DNA from: Eubacteriales bacterium
GTDB lineage: Bacteria; Bacillota; Clostridia; Oscillospirales; Butyricicoccaceae
Assembly (NCBI GenBank): GCA_030523305.1
Contig: JAUNIY010000009.1
Span: forward strand, 1 to 43,020
Length of the DNA stretch: 43,020 bases
Direction: 5' to 3'
The notes beneath the pieces were generated by a model, which saw nothing but the letters and a program-made list of their open reading frames with translations, was not told where the DNA came from and searched no databases. The position numbers and the translations under genes were made by a program. This document shows, in pieces, positions 12,042 through 40,491 of the stretch. Within the stretch, counting starts at the first letter, position 1. Each line of letters starts with the position of its first letter.

Positions 12042-12489
12042 CGGCTAGAGAAAAGAGAATACAACATCCGTTGAGCATGGGGCGGGTAACCGCTCCCGTA
12101 TGGAAGAGGACGACGGCTGGATCCATTTCTGTGTGGAATTATCCACGATGGAAATAGATCCAGCCGTTTTTTTGTTTCGCATGATGTACCAGTATACAAG
12201 ATGATATTCCTGAAAAATGGTTTTTTGCAATATATTTAAGATGTGGGAAAATAAGAACGCGATCATGTATAATATATGCATGAACCATTTGCCATATTTT
12301 TTGCGATGTGTTGATAAATCGGGAAAAAAGAAATAATATTCAGCAGGCAGCGCAGCAGCGATTTGATATCCATGCCACAGAAGGAGAGAACAGAACGGTG
12401 GTATGCCTGTTGCAAGGATACATTCCGTTGCATTGGATATTCTGTATGATAAACAGCAGTTATCCCGTTGGAAAGAGAGGTAGCGAAAA
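12042..12489. other. intergenic region before the recombinase gene
   Basis: Holds the iolG terminator (12113-12173) and then about 315 bases without a convincing gene. A perfect TATAAT (12268-12273) lies 216 bases ahead of the recombinase start but lacks a recognisable -35. A short frame beginning near 12308 overlaps the recombinase start and has no SD. Confidence 0.5.
12113..12173 (+). terminator. iolG operon terminator
   Basis: A 17-bp stem with a single mismatch (ACGGCTGGATCCATTTC with GAAATAGATCCAGCCGT) has a smaller inner GTGGA/TCCAC stem and ends in seven T residues. Confidence 0.93.
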
Positions 12490-13332
12490 ATGGAATATAT
12501 CATCACAGAGAGTATATGGGAGCAATTTCGACAGGCGATGAAGGAGCAGGAGAAAAGCGCGGCAACCCAAGCGAAGTACGTCAATGATTTGCGTTGTTTT
12601 TGCCGTTACTTGGGGAGTGAAAGGACGGTGACAAAGGAAACGGTCATTGCATATAAGGAATATCTGGCGGAGAACTACGCGAAAACCAGCGCCAATTCTA
12701 TGCTGGCAGCCATAAACTATTTCTTTTCCGTGGTGGGCTGGCTGGACTGCAAGGTCCGTATGTTTAAGCTTCAACGCGAAATCTTCCGGGCCAGTGAAAA
12801 GAATCTGACAAAACAGGAGTATTTCCGTCTGCTGGAGACGGCAAAGCAGCAAAAAAATGAAAGGTTGTATCTTTTGATGCAGACCATTTGTGGGACAGGG
12901 ATCCGCGTGAGCGAGCTGCAGTTCATCACGGTAGAAGCCCTGCGTACGCAGCGGGCTGCGGTATCGTTAAAGGGGAAATCCAGGATCGTACTGATTCCCA
13001 AAAAGCTGTGTCAAAAATTAAAGGCTTATGCGAAGCGGCAGGGGATCTTACGGGGGAGCGTTTTCGTCACGAAGAGCGGCAAGCCGATGGATCGCAGCAA
13101 CATCGCACATGAAATGAAGCGGCTGTGCACTGCCGCAGGGGTAGCGGAAGAAAAAGTATTTCCGCATAATCTCCGGCATTTGTTCGCTGTGACGTTTTAT
13201 CAGAAGGAGGGGGACTTATGTTATCTGGCGGATATTCTGGGGCATGCCAACATCAACACGACGAGAATTTATACGCGCGTCAGCTGCGAAGAGCAGGGGC
13301 GGAGGCTGGAACGGCTGGGATTGGTCTCATAA
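12490..13332 (+). CDS. tyrosine recombinase, likely the inversion switch recombinase
   Basis: A 280-residue XerC/XerD-like tyrosine recombinase. The N-terminal SAM-like arm-binding domain covers about residues 1-95 and the catalytic domain about 105-275. All catalytic residues are visible: Arg139 (GTGIRVSEL), Lys163 (KGKSR), His226 and Arg229 (PHNLRH), His252 (LGHANI) and nucleophile Tyr261 (TTRIYTR). The SD is AGAGAGG. The gene ends 28 bases before the left arm of a perfect 27-bp inverted repeat enclosing a promoter, so its most likely job is to invert that segment. It is the size of single-domain switch recombinases. No phage genes accompany it, which argues against a prophage integrase. 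The specific pairing is inferred from position. Confidence 0.93.
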   Translation: MEYIITESIWEQFRQAMKEQEKSAATQAKYVNDLRCFCRYLGSERTVTKETVIAYKEYLAENYAKTSANSMLAAINYFFSVVGWLDCKVRMFKLQREIFRASEKNLTKQEYFRLLETAKQQKNERLYLLMQTICGTGIRVSELQFITVEALRTQRAAVSLKGKSRIVLIPKKLCQKLKAYAKRQGILRGSVFVTKSGKPMDRSNIAHEMKRLCTAAGVAEEKVFPHNLRHLFAVTFYQKEGDLCYLADILGHANINTTRIYTRVSCEEQGRRLERLGLVS

Positions 13333-13360: not shown

Positions 13361-13387
13361 ACCACATAATATGCATTATGTGGTAGC
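13361..13387 (+). repeat. left inverted repeat of the invertible segment (IRL)
   Basis: This 27-base arm is the exact reverse complement of 13661-13687. It is itself quasi-palindromic: ACCACATA and TATGTGGT flank the asymmetric 8-base centre ATATGCAT, and AGC extends one side. Two inward half-sites around a 6-8 base spacer is the usual layout of a tyrosine recombinase site, and the asymmetric centre would set direction. Confidence 0.92.
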
Positions 13388-13465
13388 CAGACAGGGCTTT
13401 ACAGATTTAGGCCGCATGATTTTTGTATTTTTTGTCGAAGCTGGCCATCTGAAGGGATAGCAAAC

Positions 13466-13498
13466 AGACCGATGAATGAATGTGTTTTCACTCGGTCT
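13466..13498. terminator. hairpin inside the invertible segment, weak terminator candidate
   Basis: AGACCGA (13466-13472) pairs with TCGGTCT (13492-13498), with an inner GTG/CAC pairing, and is followed only by TTTC. It could dampen read-through from the recombinase gene into the promoter region. In the flipped state it would stand between the promoter and the surface gene. The short T run keeps confidence low. Confidence 0.4.
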
Positions 13499-13572
13499 TT
13501 CATCTATGATAATTTTTACTCCGGATAAACAAAATACAATAGAAATTTAGCCATAATTTGTGGCTTTGGGAC

Positions 13573-13601
13573 TTGCAATTGCCGCAAATACTATGTATGA
13601 T
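13573..13601 (+). promoter_or_regulatory. switch promoter within the invertible segment
   Basis: TTGCAA (13573-13578) and TATGAT (13596-13601) are separated by exactly 17 bases. It is the best promoter match between the recombinase gene and the surface protein. Expected transcription begins near 13608 and crosses the right repeat, giving a leader of about 390 bases before the start at 13998. Confidence 0.75.
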
Positions 13602-13660
13602 AGAAAAGAAAAAACAATTCGTAGACTGTATGATAAAAACTGGACATGGATTTCATTTAT

Positions 13661-13687
13661 GCTACCACATAATGCATATTATGTGGT
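13661..13687 (-). repeat. right inverted repeat of the invertible segment (IRR)
   Basis: Perfect 27-base reverse complement of 13361-13387. The match stops exactly at both ends: the flanking bases at 13388/13660 and 13360/13688 do not pair. This defines a discrete site. In the presumed ON state it is transcribed as part of the leader and can fold as a hairpin. Confidence 0.92.
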
Positions 13688-13997
13688 GGAGCAGCTGGAA
13701 TCCGAAGCCTGTTTCCGGCATGTGCCGGGCAGTCACAGCCTTCTATGTGTAGAATTCTTTGGGGGCAAAGAAAGACTGGCGAACCATTTGACCTAGCTGA
13801 AATGCTGGTTTGGGAGGTGAACATGATTCCAAAATAATGTAACGGTTGGAAAGATATTTCAAATATAGCGGCGGTATCGCTGCACGGATGGCGGGCCAGA
13901 TGATGCGTGTTATCGCAGCAGAGGTGCGCTGGATCGGCGTAGCCGGATGATTTGAGATTTCTTTTATAAAATCCTGTTTATTTAAGGAGATGGAAAG
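13688..13997 (+). other. leader region between the switch and the surface-protein gene
   Basis: No full gene and no second convincing promoter are seen in these 310 bases. A four-codon frame, Met-Ile-Pro-Lys-stop (13823-13837), has an excellent GGAGGTGA SD. A later frame from a TTG at 13846 to a TGA near 13950 encodes about 34 residues and resembles the tail of a lost gene, though no family is recognised. TATAAA at 13965-13970 lacks a -35. AAGGAG directly precedes the surface-protein ATG. Confidence 0.5.
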
Positions 13998-16900
13998 ATG
14001 AAAAGCTATCTGAACAGACTGCTTAGCTTTCTGCTTTCGCTTGCGATAGCCAGTGGCGTTCTAGTAACGCCGGGCTTCGCGGTCGAAGAGAAAACAGCAG
14101 AGGATGCGTCTGCAACGACAGATGTTGCGGATACGCAGGCTGCTGAGCAAGAAAGTGCAGCGAATGGTGCGGAAGCGTCCGGTACCATTACGGTAGAACA
14201 AAACTATGGAAGCTACACCGTCACGGCGAGCGGTATCGATGCGGCGAGCGCAGTTTCGGATGTTACGCTTCCAGCGGAAGATGTTGCCGTCGATTCGAAC
14301 GACCCAGCGACTGCAGCCGTTGAGGAAGAACTGAACGACATGACGGTCTTGAACGAAAACGGGAAATCCGTTGGCTTGACCGACGAGCAGATCGAAACGG
14401 TTTTGCAGATGTACACACAGTACAAGCAGAATTGGGAACAGAATGCAGATGTGCTGGGGGCGCAAATGCCATTCTATTTGCAGTATAACGATGACAACGA
14501 GGATGGTCTGGGGGTTTTAGGCGAAATGCTGGTTCTGGCTGGCTATACAGTCGATGACGTCAGAAGCGGCAAATATAGTTATGATGATCTGACCGGCATG
14601 ATCACGACCTTCTATTACGGCGATACGTTGGGTGTGGACTATTACGGTGATACCATCCGCAGCCAGCGTGACGATGCCCTGAAGACAGTAGAAGAATCGG
14701 GCGCGAAGACAGAATACCAGAAGCTGCTGGTCCTGAACGACTGGCTGGCAACGGTGGACAGCTTCGATATGTCGTACATCATGAACGCCGGCGAGGAAAC
14801 GCCGTCGATGCAGGCGGAGGAAGCAACCAAGCACGCCCATTATGATGATATTTACGGCGTGATGTATGATTTTTATCAGCCGCAGATTGAGAAAAACTTC
14901 CATGACCAGATTTATGAAGGCGTAAAATCCAACCTGCGCCAGCAGGTTTATGAGAAAGGCATTCGGGAAGCTGCTTATCAGGCGTACCTTCGTGACGAGA
15001 CGAATGGCATTGCAGATCCGAACAATCCGACAGAGGAGGAACAGGCCAAGGCCAATGCCGCGATTGACGAATGGATGGAGGAAAATGCGGATGCCATTGC
15101 TTCTAATCCGTCCGAGTTTGCTAAAGAGAATCTTGGAGAAGACGTAAAGAAGGAGCTCGATGCGCAGGCAGATGCATTCATTTCCACAGCGGAAACGGAT
15201 GGCATCGAGGTAGACCCGGAAAATGCGCCGGGCGTGAAGATGACCATCGAGCAAATGACCCAGCAGATGCTGGAAAGTGAAGACAAGAATGTCGATCTGG
15301 ACGGCGATGGAACTGCGGACGCTTCGTTTGCGGAGGCGATTGCGCTGTATTCCGACCAGGCGGCTTCCGGCCTGACCACCGGCGTGCTCAACTACTGGGA
15401 AGGCAACCACATCGGCGCGCTGGCAGAAGGCAAGTCGGTTTGCCTTGGCTATGCAAAGGCGTATGCATACCTGATTCAGTGCATGCATCCGGAGCTTTAT
15501 GGCAAAGACGGTGCGGGCACGGATATGACGCAGGCTGCAAACTGGAAGCCTGCCACCGAACTGTACTATGACAGCGACGGAAACCTGGATATCGATGCCG
15601 ATTATGAAGTCGATTTGGTGCGCATCACGTTTGATACGTCTGTCACCATGTACGGCGAGACCAAAGAGGGCTTCAACTCCGACCATTTCTGGAATGCCGT
15701 CAAGGTTGACGGGAAGTGGTACTATATCGACCCGTGCTATAACGACGTCTACAGCGAAGTTATGATCCGCGACCGTGTGGAGACAGCAGGTTTCATCAAC
15801 CACATGTACTTCATGTTCAGCCATGACACAACGACAGCGCTGTATGACGGCTATTACAGCGAGATCAAGACGATGTATGCAGAGGCTGCCAACGACAAGA
15901 CCTATGAGGACGCGTGGTTTGCCCGCGCCAAGACCAATGTATATTCCGACGGAAGCAAATACTATTATGTTTATGATTCCACCGATCTGATTTCCATGCT
16001 GGAGGAATACAACAACAGCCAGGATTATTCCGATCTGATGAGTGAAAGCGCACGGTATAAGCTGGTCAGCCGGGATATCACGGACAAGGACAACGGTGAC
16101 GGCGATACCGATTACAATGCGCTGATTGAGTTCAACTATTCGGAAGATGAAGACGATGAGTTGGGCGTAGCACGCGTTTACAACCCGTCTACCGGCGAGA
16201 TGGAAGAAAATGAACTGCTCACGGAGCTGTATGCAAAGCATGCGGAACAAGCAGAAATCTATCCATCGATCTTTATTACAACGGCATTGTCCGACGGCAA
16301 ACTGTATTTTAATCTGTCCAACTGTATTTTGACCTATGATCTGGAAAGCGGCGCTGTCCAGGTGGTGAAGGAATACAAAACGACCTACGGAACCCGGGAT
16401 AAGACCAAGGCGTTCGGCGGTATGGCGTTCGCTCTGTCCGAGAGCGAAGGAACGTTCCAGTTTGAGAACCATCCAATCGCAGGCATTTGTCAGGATGGCG
16501 ACAATCTGATCGTTTCCATTGCGACCAATTTGGCGTATATCTCCGGCAAGGACGATGGAACGCGCTCTGGCAGCTATACCGCAGACAACGCAGAAAACGG
16601 ATATGGCTACGAGTACGAAGAGTCCAACTACAATCCGGATTATAGCAACTACAAAATGGGCGATTATGACGATGATATGATCGAACAGTTTGGCTATACG
16701 AAGGAAATCAATGACAACGACGAATTTATGTGGGTTGCCAATCTTGTAGGCACGGTGCCGTTCTCGGAGCTGTCACCGGTAGAGGATTTCAAGGTTTCGA
16801 GCTGCAAGCATCATTATATCCACTTTGCAGAGCAGTATTTTACCAAAGATGACGACGGCAACTGGAACACTGGTGAATGCTACGTCTGCACGCAGTGCGG

Positions 16901-19900
16901 CAAGGCTGTTGAAGAACCGACCGAGCCGAAAGAAAATGCAAACTGGAACCAGACTGGAACCAGCTACGAGGAACAGAAAGCACAGTACGATAAGGACAAG
17001 GCGGAATATGATGAAATTGTCGCTTCTGCCGGTCATACGTATCAGCCTACGGATGCGGAATGGAACAGCGATGAAGAAGGCAACCAGACGGTTTCGTTCT
17101 CAAATCTGGAATGCTCCGCAGACTGTGCGCAAAAGAAAAATCATCTGGATTGCCTGATCAATGATGACACCATCCAGGTCACACTGGAGGAAGCAGTTAC
17201 CAGCACAGAGGTTGAGAAGAAGGTCCAGGGCAATTGTGAGGAAGGCTCGGAAGTTGTCTACACGGCGACTGGCAAGACAGCCGAAGGCTATGCATACACG
17301 GCAACCAAAACCGAACAGCAGGACCCTGGTGAGCACAGCTACGAAAGCACATTTACATGGACGAAAGGTGAAGACGGAGGCTATACGGCAACCGTAGATC
17401 TGGTTTGTGCCGTCTGCGGCGATGAGCAAAAGGGCATTGAGGCTACCGTCACCGAAGACACAACCGAAGCTACCTGCACCGAAGCAGGCAAGACCGTATA
17501 TACTGCTACCGCAGCACAGGGTGACAAGACCTATACCGAGGACAAGACGATAGAAATCCCGGCGACCGGCCACGATTACGAAAGCAAATTTACGTGGACG
17601 GAGAATGAAACCGGAGGCTATGCGGCAACGGCGAAGTTGGTTTGTTCCAAGTGCAACGATGAGCAAGAGGAAGTTGCAGCTACCGTCACCGACAAAACAA
17701 CGGCTGCTACCTGTACCGAAGCGGGCGAGACCGTATATACCGCTACGGTAGAACTCGACGGGGAAACCTATACCGATACCAAGACAATAGAGATCCCGGC
17801 GACCGGCCACAAGTACGAAAGCAAATTTACGTGGACGGAAGCTGGAACCGGAGGCTATACGGCAACAGCAAGCCTGACGTGTGAAGGCTGCGGAGACAAG
17901 AAAGAAGATGTCCCGGCGACTGTCACTTCAGACACAACCGACGCTACCTGCACCGAAGCAGGCGCAACCGTATATACTGCCACTGCAGAACTCGACGGGA
18001 AAACCTATACCGACACCAAGACGGTAAAGATCCCAGCGCTTGGCCACGATTACGACAGCACATTCGCGTGGGCAGAGAGTGAAGACGGAGGCTATACCGC
18101 GACGGCAAACCTGGTTTGCTCCAGATGTGATGACAAGCAAGAGGGCATTGCAGCTACCGTTACCGACAAGACAACGGCTGCTACCTGTACCGAAGCAGGC
18201 GAGACCGTATATACCGCTACTGTAGAGCAGGATGGAAAAACCTATACCGATACCCAGACGGTAGAACTTCCGGCGACCGGCCACAAATACGAAAGCAAAT
18301 TTACGTGGACGGAAGGTGAAGACGGAGGCTATACGGCAACGGCAAGTCTGACCTGTGATAACTGCGGCGACAAGAAAGAAAATACTCCGGCGACTGTCAC
18401 TGCAAAGACAACTGACGCTACCTGCACGGAGGCAGGCGCAACCGTATATACTGCCACCGCAGAACTCGACGGGGAAACCTATACCGAGGACAAGACGGTA
18501 GAAATCCCGGCGCTCGGCCATGATTACACCAGCACATTCGCGTGGGCAGAGAGTGAGGACGGAGGCTATACCGCGACGGCAAACCTGGTTTGCTCCAGAT
18601 GTGATGACAAGCAAGAGGGCATTGCAGCTACCGTTACCGACAAGACAACGGCTGCTACCTGTACCGAAGCAGGCGAGACCGTATATACCGCTACTGTAGA
18701 GCAGGATGGAAAAACCTATACCGATACCCAGACGGTAGAACTTCCGGCGACCGGCCACAAATATGAAAGCAAATTTACGTGGACGGATGCTGAAGACGGA
18801 GGCTATACGGCAACGGCAAGTCTGACCTGTGCTGGCTGCGGAGACAAGAAAGAAGATGTCCCGGCGACTGTCACTGTAGAGACAACCGACGCTACCTGCA
18901 CCGAGGCAGGCGCAACCGTATATACTGCTACCGCAACGCTCGAAGGGGAAACCTATACCGACACCAAGACGGAAGAGATCCCAGCGCTTGGCCATGATTA
19001 CACCAGCACATTCGCGTGGGCAGAGAGTGAAGACGGAGGCTATACGGCAACGGTAGATCTGGTTTGTGCCGTCTGCGGCGATGAGCAAAAGGGCATTGCA
19101 GCTACTGTCACCGAAGAGACAAAGGCTGCTACCTGCACTGAAGCGGGCGAGACCGTATATACAGCTACCGTAGAGCAGGATGGAAAAACCTATACCGATA
19201 CCAAGACGGTAGAACTCCCGGCGACCGGCCACAAATACGAAAGCAAATTTACGTGGACGGATGCTGAAGACGGAGGCTATGCGGCAACGGCAAGCCTGGG
19301 TTGCTCTAGGTGTGATGGCAAGCAAGCGGGGATTGCAGCTGCCGTCACCGAACAGACAACAGCTGCCACCTGCACCGAAGCGGGCGCAACCGTATATACT
19401 GCTTCCGCAGAGGTCGAAGGGGAAACCTATACCGACATCAAGACGGTAGCGATCCCGGCACTCGGCCACAAGTGGGATGACGGTGTCGTCACAAAGGAAC
19501 CGACGACAACCGAGAGCGGTATCAAAACCTATACTTGCACCGTGTGCATGCAGACCCGAACCGAGGAGATCGATCCGCTTCCGGACGACTCGAAGCCGGT
19601 TTACGAAATCTTTTCCGACCTGTCCGCAGGCGCATGGTATATCGATGCCATTCAATATGCATATGACAACAACATCATGGCCGGTATGGGGAATGGGACC
19701 TTTGAGCCCAACTCGTCGATGACCCGCGCGATGGTTGCGCAGATTGTGTATAATGTGGCAGGCGCGCCTGAGGTTTCCGGTGATATCCCGTTCGTGGATG
19801 TACCGTCCGATAGATGGTATTCCGACGCCATCCTTTGGGCAAGCCAAAACAATGTTGTGGCAGGCATGGGAGACGGCACGTTCCATCCGAACGACGTTAT

Positions 19901-20147
19901 CACGCGTGAACAATATGCCTCTATCTTGTATCATTATGAGAAACAACCGGCGGTTTCCGGTTCCCTGGATTTCCCGGATGCTGCGGAAGTCGGCAGCTGG
20001 GCAGTCGATGCTATGCTGTGGGCAAACCAGCGTGGTATTATCACTGGTACAAAAGAAGGCGACACGGTACTGCTGCAGCCGAAGGGCTCTGCAACTCGTG
20101 CACAAAGTGCAATGATATTGATGAATTATCTGAAAACAGCATCTTAA
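13998..20147 (+). CDS. giant secreted SLH surface protein with transglutaminase-like domain and nine repeats
   Basis: A 2049-residue secreted protein. The signal peptide covers residues 1 to about 30 (LLSFLLSLAIASG, cleavage near GFA). An acidic helical region follows. A transglutaminase/papain-like domain has Cys482 (GKSVCLGYAKAY), His563 (DHFWNAV) and Asp578 (WYYIDPC) spaced as a catalytic triad. A Cys-rich unit (GECYVCTQCGK) and a degenerate repeat lead into nine 79-residue repeats (residues 1113-1823), a half repeat (HKWDDGVVTK onward) and three SLH domains (about 1870-1925, 1932-1987 and 1993-2049). SLH domains anchor proteins to pyruvylated cell-wall polymer. The start has AAGGAG. The only good promoter upstream is the invertible one. 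The protein may crosslink or process surface proteins or act as an adhesin; that function is inferred. Confidence 0.93.
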   Translation: MKSYLNRLLSFLLSLAIASGVLVTPGFAVEEKTAEDASATTDVADTQAAEQESAANGAEASGTITVEQNYGSYTVTASGIDAASAVSDVTLPAEDVAVDSNDPATAAVEEELNDMTVLNENGKSVGLTDEQIETVLQMYTQYKQNWEQNADVLGAQMPFYLQYNDDNEDGLGVLGEMLVLAGYTVDDVRSGKYSYDDLTGMITTFYYGDTLGVDYYGDTIRSQRDDALKTVEESGAKTEYQKLLVLNDWLATVDSFDMSYIMNAGEETPSMQAEEATKHAHYDDIYGVMYDFYQPQIEKNFHDQIYEGVKSNLRQQVYEKGIREAAYQAYLRDETNGIADPNNPTEEEQAKANAAIDEWMEENADAIASNPSEFAKENLGEDVKKELDAQADAFISTAETDGIEVDPENAPGVKMTIEQMTQQMLESEDKNVDLDGDGTADASFAEAIALYSDQAASGLTTGVLNYWEGNHIGALAEGKSVCLGYAKAYAYLIQCMHPELYGKDGAGTDMTQAANWKPATELYYDSDGNLDIDADYEVDLVRITFDTSVTMYGETKEGFNSDHFWNAVKVDGKWYYIDPCYNDVYSEVMIRDRVETAGFINHMYFMFSHDTTTALYDGYYSEIKTMYAEAANDKTYEDAWFARAKTNVYSDGSKYYYVYDSTDLISMLEEYNNSQDYSDLMSESARYKLVSRDITDKDNGDGDTDYNALIEFNYSEDEDDELGVARVYNPSTGEMEENELLTELYAKHAEQAEIYPSIFITTALSDGKLYFNLSNCILTYDLESGAVQVVKEYKTTYGTRDKTKAFGGMAFALSESEGTFQFENHPIAGICQDGDNLIVSIATNLAYISGKDDGTRSGSYTADNAENGYGYEYEESNYNPDYSNYKMGDYDDDMIEQFGYTKEINDNDEFMWVANLVGTVPFSELSPVEDFKVSSCKHHYIHFAEQYFTKDDDGNWNTGECYVCTQCGKAVEEPTEPKENANWNQTGTSYEEQKAQYDKDKAEYDEIVASAGHTYQPTDAEWNSDEEGNQTVSFSNLECSADCAQKKNHLDCLINDDTIQVTLEEAVTSTEVEKKVQGNCEEGSEVVYTATGKTAEGYAYTATKTEQQDPGEHSYESTFTWTKGEDGGYTATVDLVCAVCGDEQKGIEATVTEDTTEATCTEAGKTVYTATAAQGDKTYTEDKTIEIPATGHDYESKFTWTENETGGYAATAKLVCSKCNDEQEEVAATVTDKTTAATCTEAGETVYTATVELDGETYTDTKTIEIPATGHKYESKFTWTEAGTGGYTATASLTCEGCGDKKEDVPATVTSDTTDATCTEAGATVYTATAELDGKTYTDTKTVKIPALGHDYDSTFAWAESEDGGYTATANLVCSRCDDKQEGIAATVTDKTTAATCTEAGETVYTATVEQDGKTYTDTQTVELPATGHKYESKFTWTEGEDGGYTATASLTCDNCGDKKENTPATVTAKTTDATCTEAGATVYTATAELDGETYTEDKTVEIPALGHDYTSTFAWAESEDGGYTATANLVCSRCDDKQEGIAATVTDKTTAATCTEAGETVYTATVEQDGKTYTDTQTVELPATGHKYESKFTWTDAEDGGYTATASLTCAGCGDKKEDVPATVTVETTDATCTEAGATVYTATATLEGETYTDTKTEEIPALGHDYTSTFAWAESEDGGYTATVDLVCAVCGDEQKGIAATVTEETKAATCTEAGETVYTATVEQDGKTYTDTKTVELPATGHKYESKFTWTDAEDGGYAATASLGCSRCDGKQAGIAAAVTEQTTAATCTEAGATVYTASAEVEGETYTDIKTVAIPALGHKWDDGVVTKEPTTTESGIKTYTCTVCMQTRTEEIDPLPDDSKPVYEIFSDLSAGAWYIDAIQYAYDNNIMAGMGNGTFEPNSSMTRAMVAQIVYNVAGAPEVSGDIPFVDVPSDRWYSDAILWASQNNVVAGMGDGTFHPNDVITREQYASILYHYEKQPAVSGSLDFPDAAEVGSWAVDAMLWANQRGIITGTKEGDTVLLQPKGSATRAQSAMILMNYLKTAS
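17334..19466 (+). repeat. nine tandem 237-bp repeats encoding 79-residue units
   Basis: Nine in-frame units run from a His codon at 17334 to a Gly codon at 19466, with no spacer. Each unit begins H(D/K/S)Y, contains a CxxC pair (such as LVCAVCGDEQ or LTCEGCGDKK) and a later ATCTEAG, and ends ETYTDTKT-x-x-(I/L)PA(T/L)G. Later units alternate between an HD-type and an HK-type. Units 4 and 6 are almost identical in DNA, so a 474-bp double unit was copied recently. Three cysteines per unit suggest metal binding or disulphides. Confidence 0.95.
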
Positions 20148-20444: not shown

Positions 20445-21932
20445 ATGGAAGAAAAAAACAGATTCGGGAAATTGCTGGATCAAATGATGTCCGCGGTAGA
20501 CATGAAAAACTATACGTTGTCGAAGGCATTAAAATATGACGTTTCTTATATCAGCAAATGGGTGAACGGGCATATACTGCCGTCGGAAAAAACGGCGGAA
20601 CAGATCATTGGGAACATTATCCGCTGTATTATCAGCTCTGCGAATGAAGGGCAAAAGCAGATGTTCTTACAGGATTATCAGGTTCACAATGAACAGGAAT
20701 TGGAAGCGGCAATGTACGACCACCTGAAATGTGAATACGATTATGCGAGGATTCAGCAAAAGAGCCAGAATGCTGCGAATACATCCTACTTTGTATACTA
20801 TCCTGAGCTAAGCTTGGCGCAGTTTATTGTCCGGCAAAACCATCCTGTCTTACGCCGTGTGAGTTCTCTGAATATTATGGCGTCGATGGATTTGCTGTCC
20901 ATGGAACATGAATACCGACTGCATATTGTCAGCGTGCAGCATGAATGGGCACACCCGAGCTTGACGTTCCCCAATGTACATTTTTCTTTGTCCATCGACA
21001 TCGAGCGGTGGGCGGAACATATCATATATGACACCATCTTTTTGCTCAACCTGCTTTCCAGCTGCATGCATATCGATTTTAAGCTATACGGAAGCAGCCA
21101 CTCCCGTGGACATCTTCTGTTTGCGGTGGAAAAAGATTTTTCCATCGCGGGCCTGCTGATGGACCAGCGGAGGTGCTTGTCCGTTGTGGTGAGCGAGGAC
21201 CCGGATACGGCCCAGATCATGTATGAAAATATCAAGCATTTCTGTGTGCGGGAAAACCTGCTGTTTCGGAAAACCACGATAGCGCATATGATCCAGAAAA
21301 ATGGATATCTGCAAACCCTATTGGGACAGAACAACTGTTGGCTCATGGGGCGGCTGACGGAGCATTTTCTGCCAGACGATTTATTTGAAGAACTGTTGGA
21401 ATCTGTTTGGGAACAGCTGGAAAACAATAGAGAGCTGCACAACAAAGAAGAACTCAAGAAGCTGCACATGCTGACATGCAATATGTTGGAAACTGTCCCG
21501 CTGCGCGTTCTCGTTTATGAAACTGCGTTTCAGGACATGATTGTCAACCGGCAGATTGACTTTTTCAATCAAAAGATCACCCTGACCGAAACGCAGTGTA
21601 AGCGGTATTTGCAGCATCTGTTTGGCCTTGTAAAACACCAACCGACCTTCCAATTCCGGCTGATACAGGGACAATTTGTTTCGGACTATCGCTATGTTAC
21701 CTCGCAATGTCTGTTTTTAAACGACGCAGTTTCTTATTTGTATCTGGACAACGAATCCAGCGGCACAGTGGTTTTGGTTGCCAACCGAAGCGATGTGAAG
21801 GAACGGCTGAAAGCATTTTTTGAGGAGATATGGTCGGAGAAAACGGATTGTATCATCTGCGGAACGGAGGACATTCACGCATATTTGGACGACACGCTCC
21901 GACATTTCAAGATGATCTATGGACTGCAATAG
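20445..21932 (+). CDS. HTH protein with a large unrecognised C-terminal region
   Basis: A 495-residue protein. Residues 1-60 look like a Cro/C1-type DNA-binding domain (YTLSKALKYDVSYISKWVNG, then LPSEKTAEQI). The remaining ~430 residues match no family I know. They appear soluble and alpha/beta, with no membrane segments, signal peptide or obvious catalytic motif. AAGGAG lies just upstream of the ATG. It stands between the phase-variable surface protein and the polysaccharide locus, both transcribed in the same direction, so it may regulate the polysaccharide operon or respond to the cell surface. That role rests on position alone. The length rules out a simple repressor and implies a sensor or protein-interaction domain. 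Confidence 0.8.
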   Translation: MEEKNRFGKLLDQMMSAVDMKNYTLSKALKYDVSYISKWVNGHILPSEKTAEQIIGNIIRCIISSANEGQKQMFLQDYQVHNEQELEAAMYDHLKCEYDYARIQQKSQNAANTSYFVYYPELSLAQFIVRQNHPVLRRVSSLNIMASMDLLSMEHEYRLHIVSVQHEWAHPSLTFPNVHFSLSIDIERWAEHIIYDTIFLLNLLSSCMHIDFKLYGSSHSRGHLLFAVEKDFSIAGLLMDQRRCLSVVVSEDPDTAQIMYENIKHFCVRENLLFRKTTIAHMIQKNGYLQTLLGQNNCWLMGRLTEHFLPDDLFEELLESVWEQLENNRELHNKEELKKLHMLTCNMLETVPLRVLVYETAFQDMIVNRQIDFFNQKITLTETQCKRYLQHLFGLVKHQPTFQFRLIQGQFVSDYRYVTSQCLFLNDAVSYLYLDNESSGTVVLVANRSDVKERLKAFFEEIWSEKTDCIICGTEDIHAYLDDTLRHFKMIYGLQ

Positions 21933-23980: not shown

Positions 23981-24206
23981 CGCGATCGTATCTATGCGCT
24001 GCGGAAATACCATATTGCCGGTGTTTCCGCAGGTCATGCAGATGCGCCTGCTTTGGCAGTCCCAGCTTGTCTATGGGAAACCAGGCGGAGCAGCGTAAGC
24101 ATGGCTGGATTGGAAAAGTCGGATTCCGTGCGTTGGCCTTGGGATTTGTTTTGCATGCTGTTGGCGGTTAGATGGAAAGCGCGTTTTGGATAGCGGGAGG
24201 AATGGT

Positions 24207-25445
24207 TTGGAACAACGGAGGAACATTGCCGTAGCAGGCATGGGATATGTTGGCCTGTCGCTGGCGGTCCTGTTGTCGCAGAAAAACCATGTTACAGTGG
24301 TTGACATTGTATCGGAAAAGGTGGACATGCTCAACAGACGGGAGTCGCCGATACGCGATGCGGAAATCGAACAATACTTACGCGAAAAAGATTTGGATTT
24401 ACACGCAGTCTCGGATGCAGACGAGGCGTACCGGGATGCGGAATGGATTCTTGTTGCAACGCCGACCAACTATGATCCCCAGAAGAATTTTTTTGACACA
24501 TCGGCAGTGGAATCCGTGCTGACGCAGATCGAACGCGTGAATCCGGATGCCACTGTTGTCATCAAATCGACTGTGCCTGTCGGATTTACAGAAACGGTGT
24601 GTGAAGCATATCCCATGGATCTTTTGTTCAGCCCCGAATTTTTGCGGGAATCCAAGGCATTATATGACAATTTGTATCCATCCCGCATTATTGTCGGATA
24701 TCCGCGCCGTGCGCCTGCGCTGCTGGAGCAGGCGCAGCTTTTTGCGGGATTGCTCCAGGCATGTGCAAAGAAAGCCGATATCCCCACATTGTTTATGGGC
24801 TGTACGGAGGCGGAAGCCGTCAAGCTATTTGCCAATACCTACTTGGCGCTGCGCGTCAGTTATTTCAATGAATTGGATACCTATGCGGAGAGCAAAGGGC
24901 TGCGGACAGAGAAAATTATCCGAGGCGTTTGCTTGGATCCGCGCATCGGAAGCCAGTATAACAATCCCAGCTTTGGCTATGGCGGGTATTGCTTACCGAA
25001 GGACACCAAGCAATTGCTCGCAAATTATTCCGACGTGCCGCAGAATATGATATCCGCGATTGTCGAAAGCAACCGCACAAGGAAGGATTTTATCGCGGAG
25101 CGCGTATTGCGTATGGCAGGATATGACGATGATGCACTGTACGGGGAAGGGAAGAAACCTCCCGTTACGATCGGCATATTCCGTTTGACGATGAAATCCG
25201 GATCGGATAATTTCCGGCAATCATCGATCCAAGGCATCATGAAGCGCGTAAAAGCAAAAGGTGCGAATGTGGTTATCTACGAGCCGACGCTGCCCGATCA
25301 CAGCACGTTTTGGGGTTCGGCGGTTGTCAACGATTTGGCTGCGTTCAAGGCGCAAAGCGAGGTCATTTTGGCAAATCGATACGAACGATGCTTGGACGAT
25401 GTGCGGGAAAAGGTATATACCAGGGATATTTTTCAAAGAGATTGA
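24207..25445 (+). CDS. ugd: UDP-glucose 6-dehydrogenase
   Basis: A 412-residue nucleotide-sugar dehydrogenase oxidising UDP-glucose to UDP-glucuronate with two NAD. The Rossmann motif AGMGYVGLS is at residues 10-18. [19 protein letters not shown], Lys206 and Asn210 ([10 protein letters not shown]), and catalytic Cys262 in [15 protein letters not shown] are all present. A TTG start at 24207 is chosen because GGGAGG lies six bases upstream and no in-frame ATG exists before the Rossmann motif. It is short and of the bacterial Ugd/TuaD type. With the epimerase at 30485 it would provide UDP-glucuronate and UDP-galacturonate for the polymer. The 226 bases before it hold an imperfect hairpin near 24001-24033 without a T run, and no gene. 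Confidence 0.93.
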
Positions 25446-25521
25446 TGGAATGATAGGGACCGTCCGGCACACAAACAGGAACGCCGGCGGAAAATGGGGG
25501 AAGCCTTAGGAGAGTGAAACG

Positions 25522-26235
25522 ATGCAAATGATCAAGCGCCATACAGACAGAATTGAAATCAATATTTTTGCTTTGGCGCGGCTACTTTGGAAAAAAATAT
25601 TGCTCTTGCTGCTGTGTGGTTTGTTGTGCGCAGCCGCAGCTTTTTTCTGTGTCAAGGTTTTTGTGACACCGCAATATACGGCGTCAGCTATGCTTTATGT
25701 CAACAACACGCGGTACACCGATGCCGTGACGTCGATATCCGAAAGCGATTTGACGGCGTCTGCGCAGCTGGTGGAGACCTGTACGGTCATTATCACCAGT
25801 GATGCTGTGTTAACGCCCGCGATACAGAGGCTGGATGGGAATTGGACAACGGAAATGCTGACGGAAAAGCTTTCCGTGGAAGCGGTCAACGGCACGGAGG
25901 TATTTCAAATTTCTGTGGAAGATGAAAGCCCGGAACAGGCAGCGCAGATTGCACAGACGTTGACCGAGGTGGCTTCTGGCAAGATCGCTGAAATTGTGGA
26001 GGGCAGTTCCGTCCGCGTCATTGTCGGCGCGTCTGTCCCAACAGAGCCGTCGTCGCCGGATTATGTCAAATATACGGCAGTCGGGTTCTTGCTGGGCTTT
26101 TTACTCGGCATCATCATGATAGTTCTGCGGGAAATACTGGATGACCGGATCAAACAGAAGGCAGATCTGGAGGAAAAGGAATACCCTGTGCTTGGCACGA
26201 TTCCGGAATTTTCAGCGGCGGAAAGGCTCCGTTAA
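25522..26235 (+). CDS. CpsC/Wzz-type chain-length and kinase-activator membrane protein
   Basis: A 237-residue polysaccharide co-polymerase. A membrane segment near residues 22-46 (ILLLLLCGLLCAAAAFF) and another near 182-203 (VGFLLGFLLGIIMIVL) frame an extracellular Wzz domain, with the Pro-rich PTEPSSPDYVKYT just before the second. The family controls polymer chain length and activates the partner tyrosine kinase. The partner is encoded directly downstream (16 bases away), which is the split arrangement of Gram-positive bacteria. The SD is AGGAGAG. The length is normal for CpsC/YveK-type proteins. Confidence 0.93.
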   Translation: MQMIKRHTDRIEINIFALARLLWKKILLLLLCGLLCAAAAFFCVKVFVTPQYTASAMLYVNNTRYTDAVTSISESDLTASAQLVETCTVIITSDAVLTPAIQRLDGNWTTEMLTEKLSVEAVNGTEVFQISVEDESPEQAAQIAQTLTEVASGKIAEIVEGSSVRVIVGASVPTEPSSPDYVKYTAVGFLLGFLLGIIMIVLREILDDRIKQKADLEEKEYPVLGTIPEFSAAERLR

Positions 26236-26251
26236 GGGGAAGGAGGAACGG

Positions 26252-27022
26252 ATGAGGATACGGAAAGATAGAAAGATATCCCGAAAACAAAACACGAACA
26301 GGAATTGGCTTTTGACAGATCATATGCCGTTTTCTGTGATGGAAGCATACAAATCCGTACGGACCAACTTGATTTTTTCCCTGCCGGAGGAAAGCTGTAA
26401 AAAAATTTTAATCACCAGCGCACTGCCGGGCGAAGGGAAGAGCATTACGGCAATCAATTTGGCGTTGTCCTTCGCGCAGAACAAATCGCGCGTGCTGCTG
26501 ATCGACTGCGATCTTCGGCTGCCGACAACGGCCAGCAAATTGGGTACGAAGCATGTCCCTGGGTTGACCAATGTATTGGTGGGAATTCATTCCATGCGCG
26601 ATGCGTTGCAGCATTTTCCTGTTGGGCTAGATTACCTTCCAGCCGGGGATATCCCCCCGAACCCAGTAGAATTGTTGGGGACAAAGAAAATGGAACAGCT
26701 GGTAGAAGAGCTCAGCCAGTCTTATGACTATATCATCTTTGATGACCCGCCGGTAGAAGAGCTGTCCGATTCGATCGTTTTGTCCAAGCTGATGTCGGGC
26801 GTTGTGTTTGTTGTGAAAACCGGCAGTACCACGCACGGTAGTTTGGATAGCGCGGTATCCCGGTTGCAAATGTCCGGCGCCAAAATTCTTGGATTTATCA
26901 TGACCCAGGCGCCGCTCGATCATGACCGGAAATATGCTTATAAGAAAAAATATGGTTACGGTTATGGCTATGGCTATGCGAGCAGCTATGCCAATGCGCA
27001 GAAAACCGGAGAGCAGGTATGA
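26252..27022 (+). CDS. CpsD-type bacterial tyrosine kinase
   Basis: A 256-residue BY-kinase ATPase, the cytoplasmic partner of CpsC. Walker A is ALPGEGKS (residues 57-64), Walker A' is LLIDCDLR (82-89) and Walker B is YIIFDDPP (160-167). The C-terminal tyrosine cluster, where autophosphorylation occurs, contains eight Tyr between residues 228 and 246 in a striking run of Gly-Tyr repeats. The ATG at 26252 has AGGAGG upstream; the frame stays open further back into cpsC without an SD. The stop overlaps the start of the phosphatase gene by four bases, so expression is coupled. Confidence 0.95.
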   Translation: MRIRKDRKISRKQNTNRNWLLTDHMPFSVMEAYKSVRTNLIFSLPEESCKKILITSALPGEGKSITAINLALSFAQNKSRVLLIDCDLRLPTTASKLGTKHVPGLTNVLVGIHSMRDALQHFPVGLDYLPAGDIPPNPVELLGTKKMEQLVEELSQSYDYIIFDDPPVEELSDSIVLSKLMSGVVFVVKTGSTTHGSLDSAVSRLQMSGAKILGFIMTQAPLDHDRKYAYKKKYGYGYGYGYASSYANAQKTGEQV

Positions 27023-27729
27023 TTATTGATTTTCATACCCATATTTTGCCTGGCATCGACGATGGAAGCCCAAATCTTGCTGTGTCAATGGATATGCTCA
27101 GGGAGATGCTCCGTCAGCAGGTGGGCTGCGTCGTCGCAACGCCGCACTGCAATGTATATCGGACATCTGTGGATGATTTTTTGCGCCGGAGGGAGCGTGC
27201 CCAGCATGCGCTGCTGGAGGCTGCCCATTCGGAACATATGGATATCCGGCTCATTGCCGGTGCTGAGGTTTCCTTTTTTCCGGGTATTTCCATGCTGCAT
27301 GGCATAGAGCAGTTGTGTATCCAAGGGACCAACCTATGTTTGCTGGAAATGCCGTTTCGCACATGGTCACGACAGGATATCCAGGAAGTCAACAGCCTGA
27401 TCCAACAGGGAATCGTGCCGGTGATTGCGCACTTAGAACGATATCAGCAGGGAAAAGAGGCGCTTGACATGCTGCTGGCCCTACCGGTTTATGCGCAGAT
27501 GAATGCGGAATACCTATTGAAATGGAGTACGCGACGCCAGGCGCTGCGCTGGATCAAGGCGGATATGGTACAGCTACTCGGTTCGGATTGCCACAACACA
27601 GCATCCAGGCCGCCCAATTTGCAAGCGGGACGGAACGTGCTGCGAGAGAAACTGGGACAGGCGTTTTTGCATCAAATGGATCTCTTTGGCCAAAAGCTGT
27701 TGGGAGTATACGAAGACGGAGAATTGTGA
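27019..27729 (+). CDS. CpsB-type PHP-family protein tyrosine phosphatase
   Basis: A 236-residue metal-dependent phosphatase of the PHP fold that removes phosphate from the CpsD tyrosine cluster. Metal-ligand motifs are in the expected order: DFHTHILPGIDDG (His6, His8), VVATPHCN, GAEVSFFPG, VIAHLERY and GSDCHN. Its ATG overlaps the kinase stop (ATGA). Kinase, activator and phosphatase together set the phosphorylation cycle that tunes polymer length and export. It is complete and of normal length. Confidence 0.94.
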   Translation: MIIDFHTHILPGIDDGSPNLAVSMDMLREMLRQQVGCVVATPHCNVYRTSVDDFLRRRERAQHALLEAAHSEHMDIRLIAGAEVSFFPGISMLHGIEQLCIQGTNLCLLEMPFRTWSRQDIQEVNSLIQQGIVPVIAHLERYQQGKEALDMLLALPVYAQMNAEYLLKWSTRRQALRWIKADMVQLLGSDCHNTASRPPNLQAGRNVLREKLGQAFLHQMDLFGQKLLGVYEDGEL

Positions 27730-28436
27730 TGGAAACGATATATGCGGAGGAGCAAAACGCTGCCCGCGATCGCACAGCATGGGCAGAGCAGATAGAACGG
27801 GAATTGACCCAACGGATCGCAGAGGAAAGCAAGGCCTATGGCGTGATCAAACGGGTGGGGGATATTGTGCTGTCTTTGGGGGGATTGCTGTTCCTGCTGC
27901 CGTTGTTTGCAGCATTGTGCGTTGTCATTTATCTGGATGATCCGCATGGAAGCCCCATCTATTCCCAGATCCGCATTGGAAAGGATGGAAAGCCGTTCCG
28001 GTTTTACAAATTCCGCAGTATGGTTGTAAATGCCGATCAGCTGCGCGGCAGCCTGGAAGCATACAATGAAAAGGACGGGCCTGTTTTTAAGATGAAGCAA
28101 GATCCGAGAATTACGCGGGTTGGCCGCGTGATCCGGCGCACCAGCTTGGACGAGCTGCCACAGCTGTGGAACGTGCTGCGCGGAGAAATGTCAATGGTAG
28201 GCCCTAGGCCGCCCCTGCCTGACGAGGTGGCGCAATATGATGCGTATCATAAACTGCGCCTGCTGGTCAAGCCGGGGCTAACCTGTTTTTGGCAGGTCAA
28301 AAAGACCAGGGACCAGGTCGGATTCAGCAAATGGATGGATATGGACATAGAGTATATCAGGAAACGCTCCTTGCTCGTGGATATCAAATTGATTTTTCTG
28401 ACGTTTGGCGCAGTTTTTCGCGGACAGGGAGAATGA
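27729..28436 (+). CDS. initiating undecaprenyl-phosphate sugar transferase
   Basis: A 235-residue member of the bacterial sugar transferase family (short WbaP/CpsE/WcaJ C-terminal type). It transfers a sugar phosphate from a UDP-sugar to undecaprenyl phosphate, the first step of repeat-unit assembly. One membrane or re-entrant segment (about residues 44-66) is followed by FYKFRSMVVNAD, the Asp-Glu DELPQLWNVLRGE and MSMVGPRPPLP, all hallmark motifs. Its ATG shares one base with the phosphatase stop codon. The N-terminal membrane domain of long homologues is absent, which is common. Which sugar it transfers cannot be told from sequence. Confidence 0.93.
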   Translation: METIYAEEQNAARDRTAWAEQIERELTQRIAEESKAYGVIKRVGDIVLSLGGLLFLLPLFAALCVVIYLDDPHGSPIYSQIRIGKDGKPFRFYKFRSMVVNADQLRGSLEAYNEKDGPVFKMKQDPRITRVGRVIRRTSLDELPQLWNVLRGEMSMVGPRPPLPDEVAQYDAYHKLRLLVKPGLTCFWQVKKTRDQVGFSKWMDMDIEYIRKRSLLVDIKLIFLTFGAVFRGQGE

Positions 28437-28438
28437 AG

Positions 28439-28912
28439 ATGAGGGACAAGAGACGGAAAAAAATTTGTTTTGCGGCATCGTGCGGCGGGCATTATGAGCA
28501 GCTGATGATGCTCAAACCATTGATGGAGAAATATGACAGCTTTGTATTGACGGAAAAAACGCAGTACGACGTGCAGGACGAAGCGGTAAAATTATATCGC
28601 GTCCCGCAGGTCAACCGGAAGGAAAAGCTGTGCTTGCTCAAGATGCTGTGGATTTCCATGGTGTCCCTTTGGCTGTTTATCAAAGAAAAGCCGGAGGTGG
28701 TTGTCTGTACCGGCGTGCTGGCGATGATCCCGATCTGTCTGATTATGAAGCTATTTGGCCGGAAAGTCATTTATATTGAATCGTTTGCCATGATCCATGC
28801 CCCGACGCGGACAGGGCGGCTGTTGTATCCATTGGCAGACCGGTTTTATGTACAGTGGGAGAGCATGAAAGCATATTATCCGAACGCAATTTATTTGGGC
28901 GCGATATATTGA
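28439..28912 (+). CDS. PssD/Alg14-like glycosyltransferase membrane subunit
   Basis: A 157-residue protein of the Alg14 family. It recruits the catalytic partner to the membrane to add the second sugar of a lipid-linked unit. CFAASCGGHYEQLMML begins the fold, followed by VVVCTGVLAMIP and IYIESFAMIHAPTRTG. The ATG at 28439 has GGGAGA six bases upstream; another ATG at 28433 lies too close to that SD. The PssE-like partner follows immediately. In streptococcal capsule loci this two-gene transferase adds galactose or glucuronate to the first sugar; here the sugar is unknown. Confidence 0.88.
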   Translation: MRDKRRKKICFAASCGGHYEQLMMLKPLMEKYDSFVLTEKTQYDVQDEAVKLYRVPQVNRKEKLCLLKMLWISMVSLWLFIKEKPEVVVCTGVLAMIPICLIMKLFGRKVIYIESFAMIHAPTRTGRLLYPLADRFYVQWESMKAYYPNAIYLGAIY

Positions 28913-28944
28913 TATGCCGCATGTATGGATCGGGAGAAGATGAG

Positions 28945-29427
28945 ATGGTTTTTGTCACAGTAGGCTCGCAAAAGTTTCCGTTCAACCGTCTGTTGGAGCA
29001 AATTGATGGATTGATGGAAAAGGGAGTTTTGACCGAAGAGGTTTTCGCACAGACCGGGTACAGCGATTATTTGCCCAAGCATTATGCGTTTGCGCATTTT
29101 CTCGATCGGAAGGAATTTGCTGCGTGGGAAGAAAAAGCTGAGATTGTGATCTCGCACGGTGGAACCGGCGCGATGATTGGAGCGGTGAAAAAGGGCAAAA
29201 AAGTCATTGCGGTGCCACGGTTGGCAAGATATGGTGAACATGTAGACGACCATCAATTGCAGATTATTGCAGAGTTTGAAAAACAAAATCTCGTTTATGG
29301 CCTGCGGGATTGCAGTGAGTTGGAAAAAGCGCTGCAATTTGTGCGTATGCATGCATTTGGCACATATACGTCCAACATAGACAGGCTGATTGCAGATATC
29401 GAAACATACATAGAGGATATCATATGA
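28945..29427 (+). CDS. PssE/Alg13-like glycosyltransferase catalytic subunit
   Basis: A 160-residue protein with the C-terminal GT28-like nucleotide-sugar-binding half: MVFVTVGSQKFPFNRLL at the start, and VISHGGTGAMIGAV and VIAVPRLARYGEHVDDHQ later. It works with the Alg14-like protein encoded just upstream. GGGAGA precedes the ATG at 28945. Its stop overlaps the next start by four bases (ATGA). Confidence 0.9.
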   Translation: MVFVTVGSQKFPFNRLLEQIDGLMEKGVLTEEVFAQTGYSDYLPKHYAFAHFLDRKEFAAWEEKAEIVISHGGTGAMIGAVKKGKKVIAVPRLARYGEHVDDHQLQIIAEFEKQNLVYGLRDCSELEKALQFVRMHAFGTYTSNIDRLIADIETYIEDII

Positions 29428-30488
29428 ATGTACTGATGGTAGGGAATGATCTGTCTGTACAAGGCGGCATCACCAGCGTTATGACGCAGCTGCTGGAATA
29501 CAACTGGGAAAAGCAAAACATAGAGATGAAATACATCCCGACATATGTTGAGGCGGGGATGTTGCGGAAATTTGTTTTTTTCGCGAAGGCATATCGAAGG
29601 ATCAACCAGGAAATCAGACAAAATAAGCCGGATCTTGTACACATACACATGTCGTACAGAGGAAGCTTTTTTCGGAAATATCTCATACACAAGCTGTGCC
29701 AAAAGAACAGGATTCCGGATGTTGTCCATCTGCACGGTTCGGAATTTGCGCAGTGGTATGCTGCATCCGGACATGCCCTGCAAAAAAGGATCCAGTCTAT
29801 GCTGCGGGAGTGCAGCTTGTGCATTGTGCTCGGGGAAAAGTGGAACCGGACGATCAAGAAGATTGAACCTGCCGCTACGACGATGATCGTGCGCAATGCC
29901 GTGCATATCCCACATGAAACGGTTGCATGGCGCATCCCGTTTACCATTTTGTTTTTGGGCGCACTGATCCCGCGAAAGGGCGTGGCAGATCTCTTGCAAG
30001 CGTTGCAGCAGATCAAGGGAATGCATGGCCTGGAGCATATCCGGCTGGTCATTGCCGGAACCGGCGCGGAGGAAGGCGCATTGCGTGCACGCAGCGCGCA
30101 ATTATCAATCGGGCCATATGTCACGTTTGCGGGATGGGTAGACGGGGAGGCGAAGAAGAAGCTGCTCCGCGAATGCCAGATGTTGGTGCTGCCTTCCTAT
30201 CATGAGGGATTGCCGGTCGCAATATTAGAAGCGATGAGCTATGGAATGCCGATTGTTGCAACAGACGTAGGGGACATATCGGCGGCCGTTCACGAAGGGG
30301 AAAACGGTTTTCTGGTTCGGCCCGGCGATATTGACGGTTTGGCAGACCGCATGTACGCACTGGCATCGAATCAGGGATTGTTTGACCGTATGTGCAGGCG
30401 ATCCAAAGCAATCGTACGGGAATTTTCGGATGAGGCCTATGGGGAGCAAATGGTGAAGGCTTATGTAAAGGGAATGACGAACATATGA
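29424..30488 (+). CDS. GT4-family glycosyltransferase
   Basis: A 354-residue GT-B glycosyltransferase. The N-terminal acceptor domain begins NVLMVGNDLSVQGGITSV with the Gly-Gly-Ile loop. The C-terminal donor domain shows ILFLGALIPRKGVADLL and the E-x7-E motif in YHEGLPVAILEAMSYG, followed by GFLVRPGD. These are the hallmarks of retaining GT4 enzymes. It overlaps the preceding and following genes by four bases each. The donor sugar cannot be told. Confidence 0.93.
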   Translation: MNVLMVGNDLSVQGGITSVMTQLLEYNWEKQNIEMKYIPTYVEAGMLRKFVFFAKAYRRINQEIRQNKPDLVHIHMSYRGSFFRKYLIHKLCQKNRIPDVVHLHGSEFAQWYAASGHALQKRIQSMLRECSLCIVLGEKWNRTIKKIEPAATTMIVRNAVHIPHETVAWRIPFTILFLGALIPRKGVADLLQALQQIKGMHGLEHIRLVIAGTGAEEGALRARSAQLSIGPYVTFAGWVDGEAKKKLLRECQMLVLPSYHEGLPVAILEAMSYGMPIVATDVGDISAAVHEGENGFLVRPGDIDGLADRMYALASNQGLFDRMCRRSKAIVREFSDEAYGEQMVKAYVKGMTNI

Positions 30489-31525
30489 AGGACATTGATT
30501 TGACGGGAAAAACCGTCTTGATTACCGGCGTCGGCGGCTTCATCGGCGCTCATTTGGCGTCTTGCCTGCTGGAAACGGTTCCGGGTATTGTCATCGTCGG
30601 GCTGGATAACGTGAATGATTACTACGATGTATCACTGAAGGAGTACCGCCTGCGGAGGTTTGACGCGCAAAAACGGTTTATCTTTTTCAGAGGAGATATT
30701 GCAGACGACGGTTTGTTAGAAAAGCTGTTTGCACAGTACCGGCCGCATGTTGTGGTTCATCTGGCAGCGCAGGCTGGCGTGCGGTATTCCATCACACATC
30801 CGGATGCGTATATATCTACCAATCTAGTGGGGTTTTATCGTGTGTTGGAGGCGTGCCGCCACTGTCCGGTAGAGCATCTGGTATATGCGTCCTCCTCCTC
30901 TGTATATGGGCTCAATGAGAACGTTCCGTACGGTACGCAGGACAAAACAGACCGGCCGGTTTCGCTGTATGCCGCGACGAAAAAATCGAATGAATTGATG
31001 GCGCATGCCTATAGCAAGCTGTATGATATCCCCTGCACCGGGCTGCGTTTTTTTACGGTCTATGGACCGGCAGGGCGGCCGGATATGGCGTATTTCAGCT
31101 TTACCGATAAAATGATCCGGGGGGAACCGGTGCAGCTGTTCCATTATGGGGATATGAAGCGGGATTTTACCTATATCGATGATGCTGTGGAAAGTGTGAT
31201 GCGTATTCTGCGTCGGGCGCCGGAGCCGGATGCAAATCAGGTTTCCAGCCGGATTTACAACATAGGCAATCAGCATCCGGAAACGTTGTTGGATTTTGTA
31301 AACACATTGGAGATATGCCTGTTGCAGGAGGGGTTGATTTCCCAGCCCGTGGAAAAACAGCTGCTCCCGATGCAGCCGGGAGATGTGTATCAAACCTACG
31401 CGGATGTATCCGATTTGGTACGAGATTTTGGATTTCGTCCATCCACGAGCTTGAAAACCGGATTGCAACGGTTTGCTGCATGGTATCGGACATATTATTT
31501 TGGCTCGGAAAGAACAACGATATGA
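30485..31525 (+). CDS. UDP-glucuronate 4-epimerase
   Basis: A 346-residue extended short-chain dehydrogenase/reductase that converts UDP-glucuronate to UDP-galacturonate. The NAD motif GVGGFIG is at residues 15-21, the catalytic YxxxK is Tyr162/Lys166 (YAATKKSNE), and the serine cluster is YASSSSVYG. The segment DNVNDYYDVSLKEYRL and the QAGVRYS motif are characteristic of the uronate epimerase subgroup rather than GalE. The enzyme fits directly with Ugd in the same locus. Its start overlaps the previous stop by four bases. Confidence 0.92.
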   Translation: MKDIDLTGKTVLITGVGGFIGAHLASCLLETVPGIVIVGLDNVNDYYDVSLKEYRLRRFDAQKRFIFFRGDIADDGLLEKLFAQYRPHVVVHLAAQAGVRYSITHPDAYISTNLVGFYRVLEACRHCPVEHLVYASSSSVYGLNENVPYGTQDKTDRPVSLYAATKKSNELMAHAYSKLYDIPCTGLRFFTVYGPAGRPDMAYFSFTDKMIRGEPVQLFHYGDMKRDFTYIDDAVESVMRILRRAPEPDANQVSSRIYNIGNQHPETLLDFVNTLEICLLQEGLISQPVEKQLLPMQPGDVYQTYADVSDLVRDFGFRPSTSLKTGLQRFAAWYRTYYFGSERTTI

Positions 31526-33824: not shown

Positions 33825-33826
33825 AT

Positions 33827-35877: not shown

Positions 35878-35883
35878 TCTGGC

Positions 35884-37329: not shown

Positions 37330-37350
37330 GAAGCAGGAAGGTGTGATACG

Positions 37351-39182: not shown

Positions 39183-39208
39183 ATGATTTTCATTGGGAGG
39201 AAATGGAC

Positions 39209-40465: not shown

Positions 40466-40491
40466 CAACAAGCGGGAAAGGAGCGTGAACC

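Follow-up and report, generated by a model that had tools for sequence, protein, structure and literature searches.

A probable fim-like invertible-promoter switch, with an adjacent recombinase gene, upstream of a giant SLH surface protein in a gut clostridial lineage

Invertible promoters are well known. In Escherichia coli, the fimS promoter lies in a segment of about 300 bp that is flipped by the adjacent tyrosine recombinases FimB and FimE, giving ON/OFF control of a surface structure. The locus described here shares this layout and, we predict, this kind of control, although it has one recombinase rather than two, different sites and an SLH protein rather than fimbriae as its cargo.

Inversion also takes place 5′ of a very large cell-wall protein in a gut Clostridium, Clostridioides difficile, where cwpV is switched by RecV, a tyrosine recombinase of the XerC/D family (PMC2784873). 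In that system, however, the inverted DNA does not include the promoter, a terminator carried by the OFF transcript exerts control, and recV lies elsewhere (PMC2784873). The first-pass annotation of the present locus had named cwpV as its architectural model, which proved to be the wrong choice: neither a promoter outside the segment nor a recombinase encoded elsewhere is found here. With its internal promoter and neighbouring recombinase gene, the locus is rightly compared with a fim-like switch. Cdi7 of C. difficile R20291, the only inversion site in that strain with a recombinase in its vicinity, is RecV-independent (PMC5903667); it resembles our locus in this proximity.

Among gut invertons, Jin et al. 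(2025) described inverton group 139, comprising 33 invertons, of which 32 are from Clostridia and nearly all are near a tyrosine-type recombinase (PMC11892184). The group is significantly linked to one tyrosine recombinase group (invertase group 35), its example segments are about 255 bp long, and read-level orientation shifts are reported in Clostridium sp. D5 and Intestinimonas (PMC11892184). The family studied here is probably inverton group 139 with invertase group 35, the agreement being one of host class, adjacency and span only, and the part of that report describing the group gives neither site anatomy nor a reshuffling of recombinases and cargo (PMC11892184). New in the present case are this cargo, the anatomy of the sites and the pairing of one switch unit with unrelated cargo.

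We interpret the locus as a self-contained fim-like invertible-promoter switch, currently ON, that would be flipped by the adjacent recombinase and would control the SLH protein, and we give this reading a probability of about 0.92. The locus would offer a defined, experimentally testable switch of a giant SLH protein in the family to which Butyricicoccus belongs, a gut lineage that has received little study.

Anatomy of the locus

The window is the whole stretch of DNA that was analysed (43,020 nucleotides), and its relevant features are the following.

12490 to 13332, + strand: tyrosine recombinase, 280 aa, XerC/D/A-like, the probable inverting enzyme (Pfam Phage_integrase, 3e-29)
13361 to 13387, + strand: left recombination arm, a 27-bp inverted repeat; core site 13364-13381 with spacer ATGC at 13371-13374 (consensus ACATAAT-NNNN-ATTATGT from 87 cassettes)
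13361 to 13384, − strand: left arm read leftward, a 10-bp hairpin followed by a T-rich tail, terminator-like (−11 kcal/mol, z −3.25)
13388 to 13660, no strand assigned: putative invertible segment, 273 bp (homologous segments are inverted between relatives)
13466 to 13498, no strand assigned: internal hairpin, probable bidirectional terminator or insulator (z −2.0 and −3.5 on the two strands; a hairpin recurs in related cassettes)
13573 to 13601, + strand: predicted sigma-70-type promoter TTGCAA-17-TATGAT, directed toward the SLH gene, the ON orientation (consensus match; aligned promoter in the sister cassette L062)
13661 to 13687, − strand: right recombination arm; core site 13667-13684, spacer inverted
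13688 to 13997, + strand: leader separating the switch from the SLH gene (without an Rfam match)
13998 to 20147, + strand: SLH protein, the cargo, 2049 aa, secreted (signal peptide, transglutaminase-like core, Cys-pair repeats and C-terminal SLH domains)
20445 to 21932, + strand: 495-aa gene, possibly co-transcribed with the SLH gene (a homologue adjoins the SLH orthologue in G010)

The first-pass annotation had reported perfect 27-bp inverted repeats that enclose 273 bp with a good promoter, lying between genes for a tyrosine recombinase and a 2049-residue SLH protein, and our measurements bear this out. The two arms are 100% complementary and 273 nt apart, the promoter faces the 13998 gene, and both flanking reading frames were identified by domain matches. 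The left arm begins 28 bp past the recombinase stop codon, and each arm is a 10-4-10 near-palindrome (ACCACATAAT-ATGC-ATTATGTGGT). No second non-local inverted repeat of at least 16 nt within 1.5 kb was found across the 43-kb window; the three others of this length are local palindromes or a hairpin with a 5-nt loop. A chance origin of the repeats is excluded: 446 control stretches yielded no inverted-repeat score higher than 14, compared with the 27 matched bases here. The locus has inverted repeats bounding a promoter and an adjacent intact recombinase, two of the marks of a fim-like inverton.

The recombinase has all of the catalytic residues (R139, K163, H226, R229, H252 and Y261), which are conserved in 21 homologues. 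Its best NCBIfam models are XerA, XerD and XerC, all below their cut-offs, and the solved structures nearest to it are XerC-like, XerA and XerD. Unlike FimB and FimE, it is XerC/D/A-like, and its scores fall well short of the cut-offs set for Fim-type tyrosine DNA invertase models (26.3 against 221 bits and 24.1 against 222 bits). It probably acts on the adjacent arm sites.

We predict that the recombinase binds the two inverted ACCACATAAT-ATGC-ATTATGTGGT sites and that strand exchange in the asymmetric spacer would flip 13361-13687. In the ON state, as assembled, the promoter at 13573-13601 would drive the giant SLH protein, and in the flipped OFF state it would face the recombinase gene. The internal hairpin would then lie between promoter and cargo, with recombinase read-through kept from the cargo, and the left arm with its T-tail would probably stop the leftward transcript. 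The outcome would be ON/OFF phase variation of the large surface protein, which we consider probable, with 13361-13687 predicted to flip in cells and its orientation predicted to affect SLH gene expression.

Promoter and terminator calls are based on consensus. Across the family, a hairpin recurs about 88 bp from the recombinase-side arm (in the ON orientation), with a hairpin score that is reached by 59% of segments compared with 4.6% of mononucleotide-shuffled segments, and its flanks, A-rich on the 5′ side and T-rich on the 3′ side, are like those of a bidirectional terminator. Such a hairpin would part recombinase transcription from the cargo in either orientation, leaving cargo expression to the promoter alone. 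Read leftward, the left arm could halt OFF-state transcription into the recombinase gene. Because the A-rich flank left of arm 1 is only modestly enriched family-wide (46% A vs 38% A right of arm 2), we propose a terminator at this arm tentatively and for the window alone. Rfam families had no match anywhere in the window. A separate strong hairpin at 12113-12167, 3′ of an oxidoreductase gene, is probably the terminator of that gene.

Paired sites in related cassettes

Recombinase matches were present in 57 of 60 genomes of the same genus, family and order; many are merely general Xer-like, and close relatives (about 45-60% identity) are frequent among those 60 genomes. A scan of species genomes returned at least 586 recombinase relatives, of which 80 were kept; these come from Lachnospiraceae, Oscillospiraceae and other Clostridia, mostly of gut or faecal origin going by their record titles. 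An inverted repeat scoring at least 17 lies right after the recombinase stop codon in about 60 loci, compared with a maximum of 14 in the 446 control stretches, and the adjacency of recombinase and sites is conserved in related cassettes.

Tyrosine recombinase strand exchange demands a matched, asymmetric spacer between fixed half-sites. In 87 related cassettes, the site pair ACATAAT-NNNN-ATTATGT lies 3′ of the recombinase with a spacer that varies between cassettes, is never palindromic and is identical (inverted) within 86 of the 87 pairs, against 0.9 expected. Long inverted repeats were part of the basis for selecting this set, which tilts it towards matched spacers, so a spacer-blind site scan is the less biased test; it found 79 cassettes with two strong sites, and in 77 of them the spacers are inverted and matched (one exception, L136, has three sites), and two-site windows numbered 0 of 1141 among controls. 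A spacer that is variable yet internally matched and asymmetric is hard to explain except by tyrosine recombinase strand exchange. Base position 4 of the half-site tracks the recombinase tree, which was built by a quick method (7 changes vs 17.3 when shuffled), linking the enzyme to its adjacent site. The resulting sequence rule, a recombinase stop codon followed by an inverted ACATAAT-NNNN-ATTATGT pair, can reveal such switches in assemblies without the use of reads.

A further candidate rule, that spacers differ among the cassettes of one genome, fails: L151 and L158 share TCGC, and two invertons of G094 share GTGA. Three-site cassettes occur at L065:5036-5375, L136 and L198, two of the sites being direct copies about 62-86 bp apart. 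The orthologous family recombinases L195 and L196 have no recognisable downstream sites, one of them carrying a deletion of about 180 bp, and are decayed switches. G097 belongs to the window's family, and 11 kb of it match the Butyricicoccus faecihominis DFI.6.109 record (L155) at 100% identity. G094 and G097 contain invertons with the same half-sites and no adjacent recombinase (L172, L173, L174, L176, L177 and L178). Several of these precede SLH-like proteins, and they are presumably flipped in trans by one of the several family recombinases there.

Segment orientation among relatives and competing explanations

Most segments have one clearly best promoter, which points outward and usually lies 25-50 bp inside an arm. 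On this basis 20 segments are ON (promoter toward the downstream gene), 59 are OFF (toward the recombinase) and 6 are ambiguous. Wherever homology between an ON and an OFF segment is detectable (13 pairs), the match is on opposite strands, without exception. L095 and L126, for instance, have recombinases and arms that align collinearly (83% identity) and a common spacer, and the segment aligns only if flipped; L119/L127, L094/L156 and L096/L098 show the same pattern. The orthologous recombinase-less invertons L172 and L176 (of G094 and G097) also align better flipped, which is secondary evidence because the interior is partly self-complementary. Homology on opposite strands between OFF segments is short and probably reflects the palindromic hairpin. 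Near-identical cassette pairs of two sister species (L197/L198 and L199/L200) share one orientation, with no flip. On the tree, orientation changes at least 14 times, compared with 18.2 when shuffled (0 of 300 shuffles as low), which points to repeated flips with some lineage bias; the partial clustering suggests that some lineages may be biased or locked.

The first-pass annotation had called for a search of related genomes for the segment in both orientations. Homologous cassettes were indeed recovered both ON and OFF, and the exact locus was recovered in one orientation; exact-pattern and protein scans of viral contigs gave no match and so no second orientation of the window locus there. 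Its reading of the locus as recombinase-driven promoter inversion is strongly supported by the variable, matched spacers, the two promoter orientations across relatives and the inversions confined to the segment.

This evidence also bears on three other accounts. The switch might have functioned in ancestors and now be locked ON in this strain, given that the window's assembly shows one orientation and that decayed relatives exist in L195 and L196, whose recombinases lack recognisable sites. Perfect 27-bp arms with an identical asymmetric spacer and a recombinase with all of its catalytic residues make this improbable. The palindromic form of each arm, and the terminator-like nature of the left arm read leftward, would also suit a pair of terminator hairpins or of repressor operators whose inverted repetition is incidental, but such elements would not need spacers that differ between cassettes yet are matched and inverted within each, nor would they yield opposite segment orientations between relatives. 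We regard this account as very improbable, and find it just as hard to credit that an integrating mobile element left the recombinase and repeats behind, the repeats being its attachment sites. The spacers are inverted, not direct, in 77 of the 79 cassettes with two strong sites, and mobile-element genes are absent from the enclosed DNA, which consists of a promoter and a hairpin, even though a tyrosine recombinase adjoins the repeats, a related SLH gene in G010 has no upstream cassette, and related cassettes precede unrelated genes.

Cargo genes and the spread of the switch unit

The protein encoded at 13998 combines an N-terminal signal sequence, read directly, with three SLH stretches (5e-30), as expected of an SLH-anchored surface protein. 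Its region encoded at 14298-16200 has no Pfam match; it is weakly similar to a transglutaminase-related family, with Cys, His and Asp conserved in three homologues. An orthologue in the same genus (L169, G010:C1) is 46% identical over the protein and shares the downstream genes, and has no recombinase or switch upstream, making it a natural comparison for the window's SLH gene.

The genome that contains the window has a second cassette, on contig C223 (L062), with a recombinase 75% identical to that of the window, its own inverted sites with spacer GCTT instead of ATGC, and a promoter (TTGAAA-17-TATTAT) that aligns with the position of the window promoter. The gene 3′ of this cassette encodes not a surface protein but a DEAD/ResIII helicase with helicase-associated repeats. 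This helicase (G000:C223, L062:5684-8874) has weak matches to defence proteins, and similar helicases follow the cassettes in L017 and L117; such helicase cassettes possibly represent phase-variable defence.

Across the family, cassettes precede many different genes, most of them specifying secreted or surface products. These downstream genes often encode proteins of 500-2700 aa, many with signal sequences, and others encode capsule, pilus/TasA-like and helicase functions. Pfam families among the cargo include Listeria-Bacteroides repeats, dockerin, SLH, LRR, collagen repeats and camelysin. In L095, L126, L098 and L105, related recombinases accompany genes that look unrelated by sequence, indicating that the switch can be uncoupled from its cargo. 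On balance, we lean towards the view that recombinase, sites, promoter and bidirectional terminator together make up a portable cassette for phase variation, which has spread among gut Clostridia by placement before unrelated genes (giant adhesin-like proteins, capsule operons, pili and a restriction-type helicase), with half-sites that track the recombinase and a 4-base spacer free to vary except for the match within each pair. From the cargo it seems that, in many gut Clostridia, variation of this kind affects surface proteins, capsule and possibly defence genes.

Small regulator-like or zinc-ribbon-like ORFs directly follow the inverton in L094, L127, L131, L071, L019 and L021, and in several of these giant proteins come next. 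In the window itself, 24186-42000 holds a capsule/exopolysaccharide cluster with genes for a UDP-sugar dehydrogenase, Wzz, a kinase, CpsB, a flippase and glycosyltransferases.
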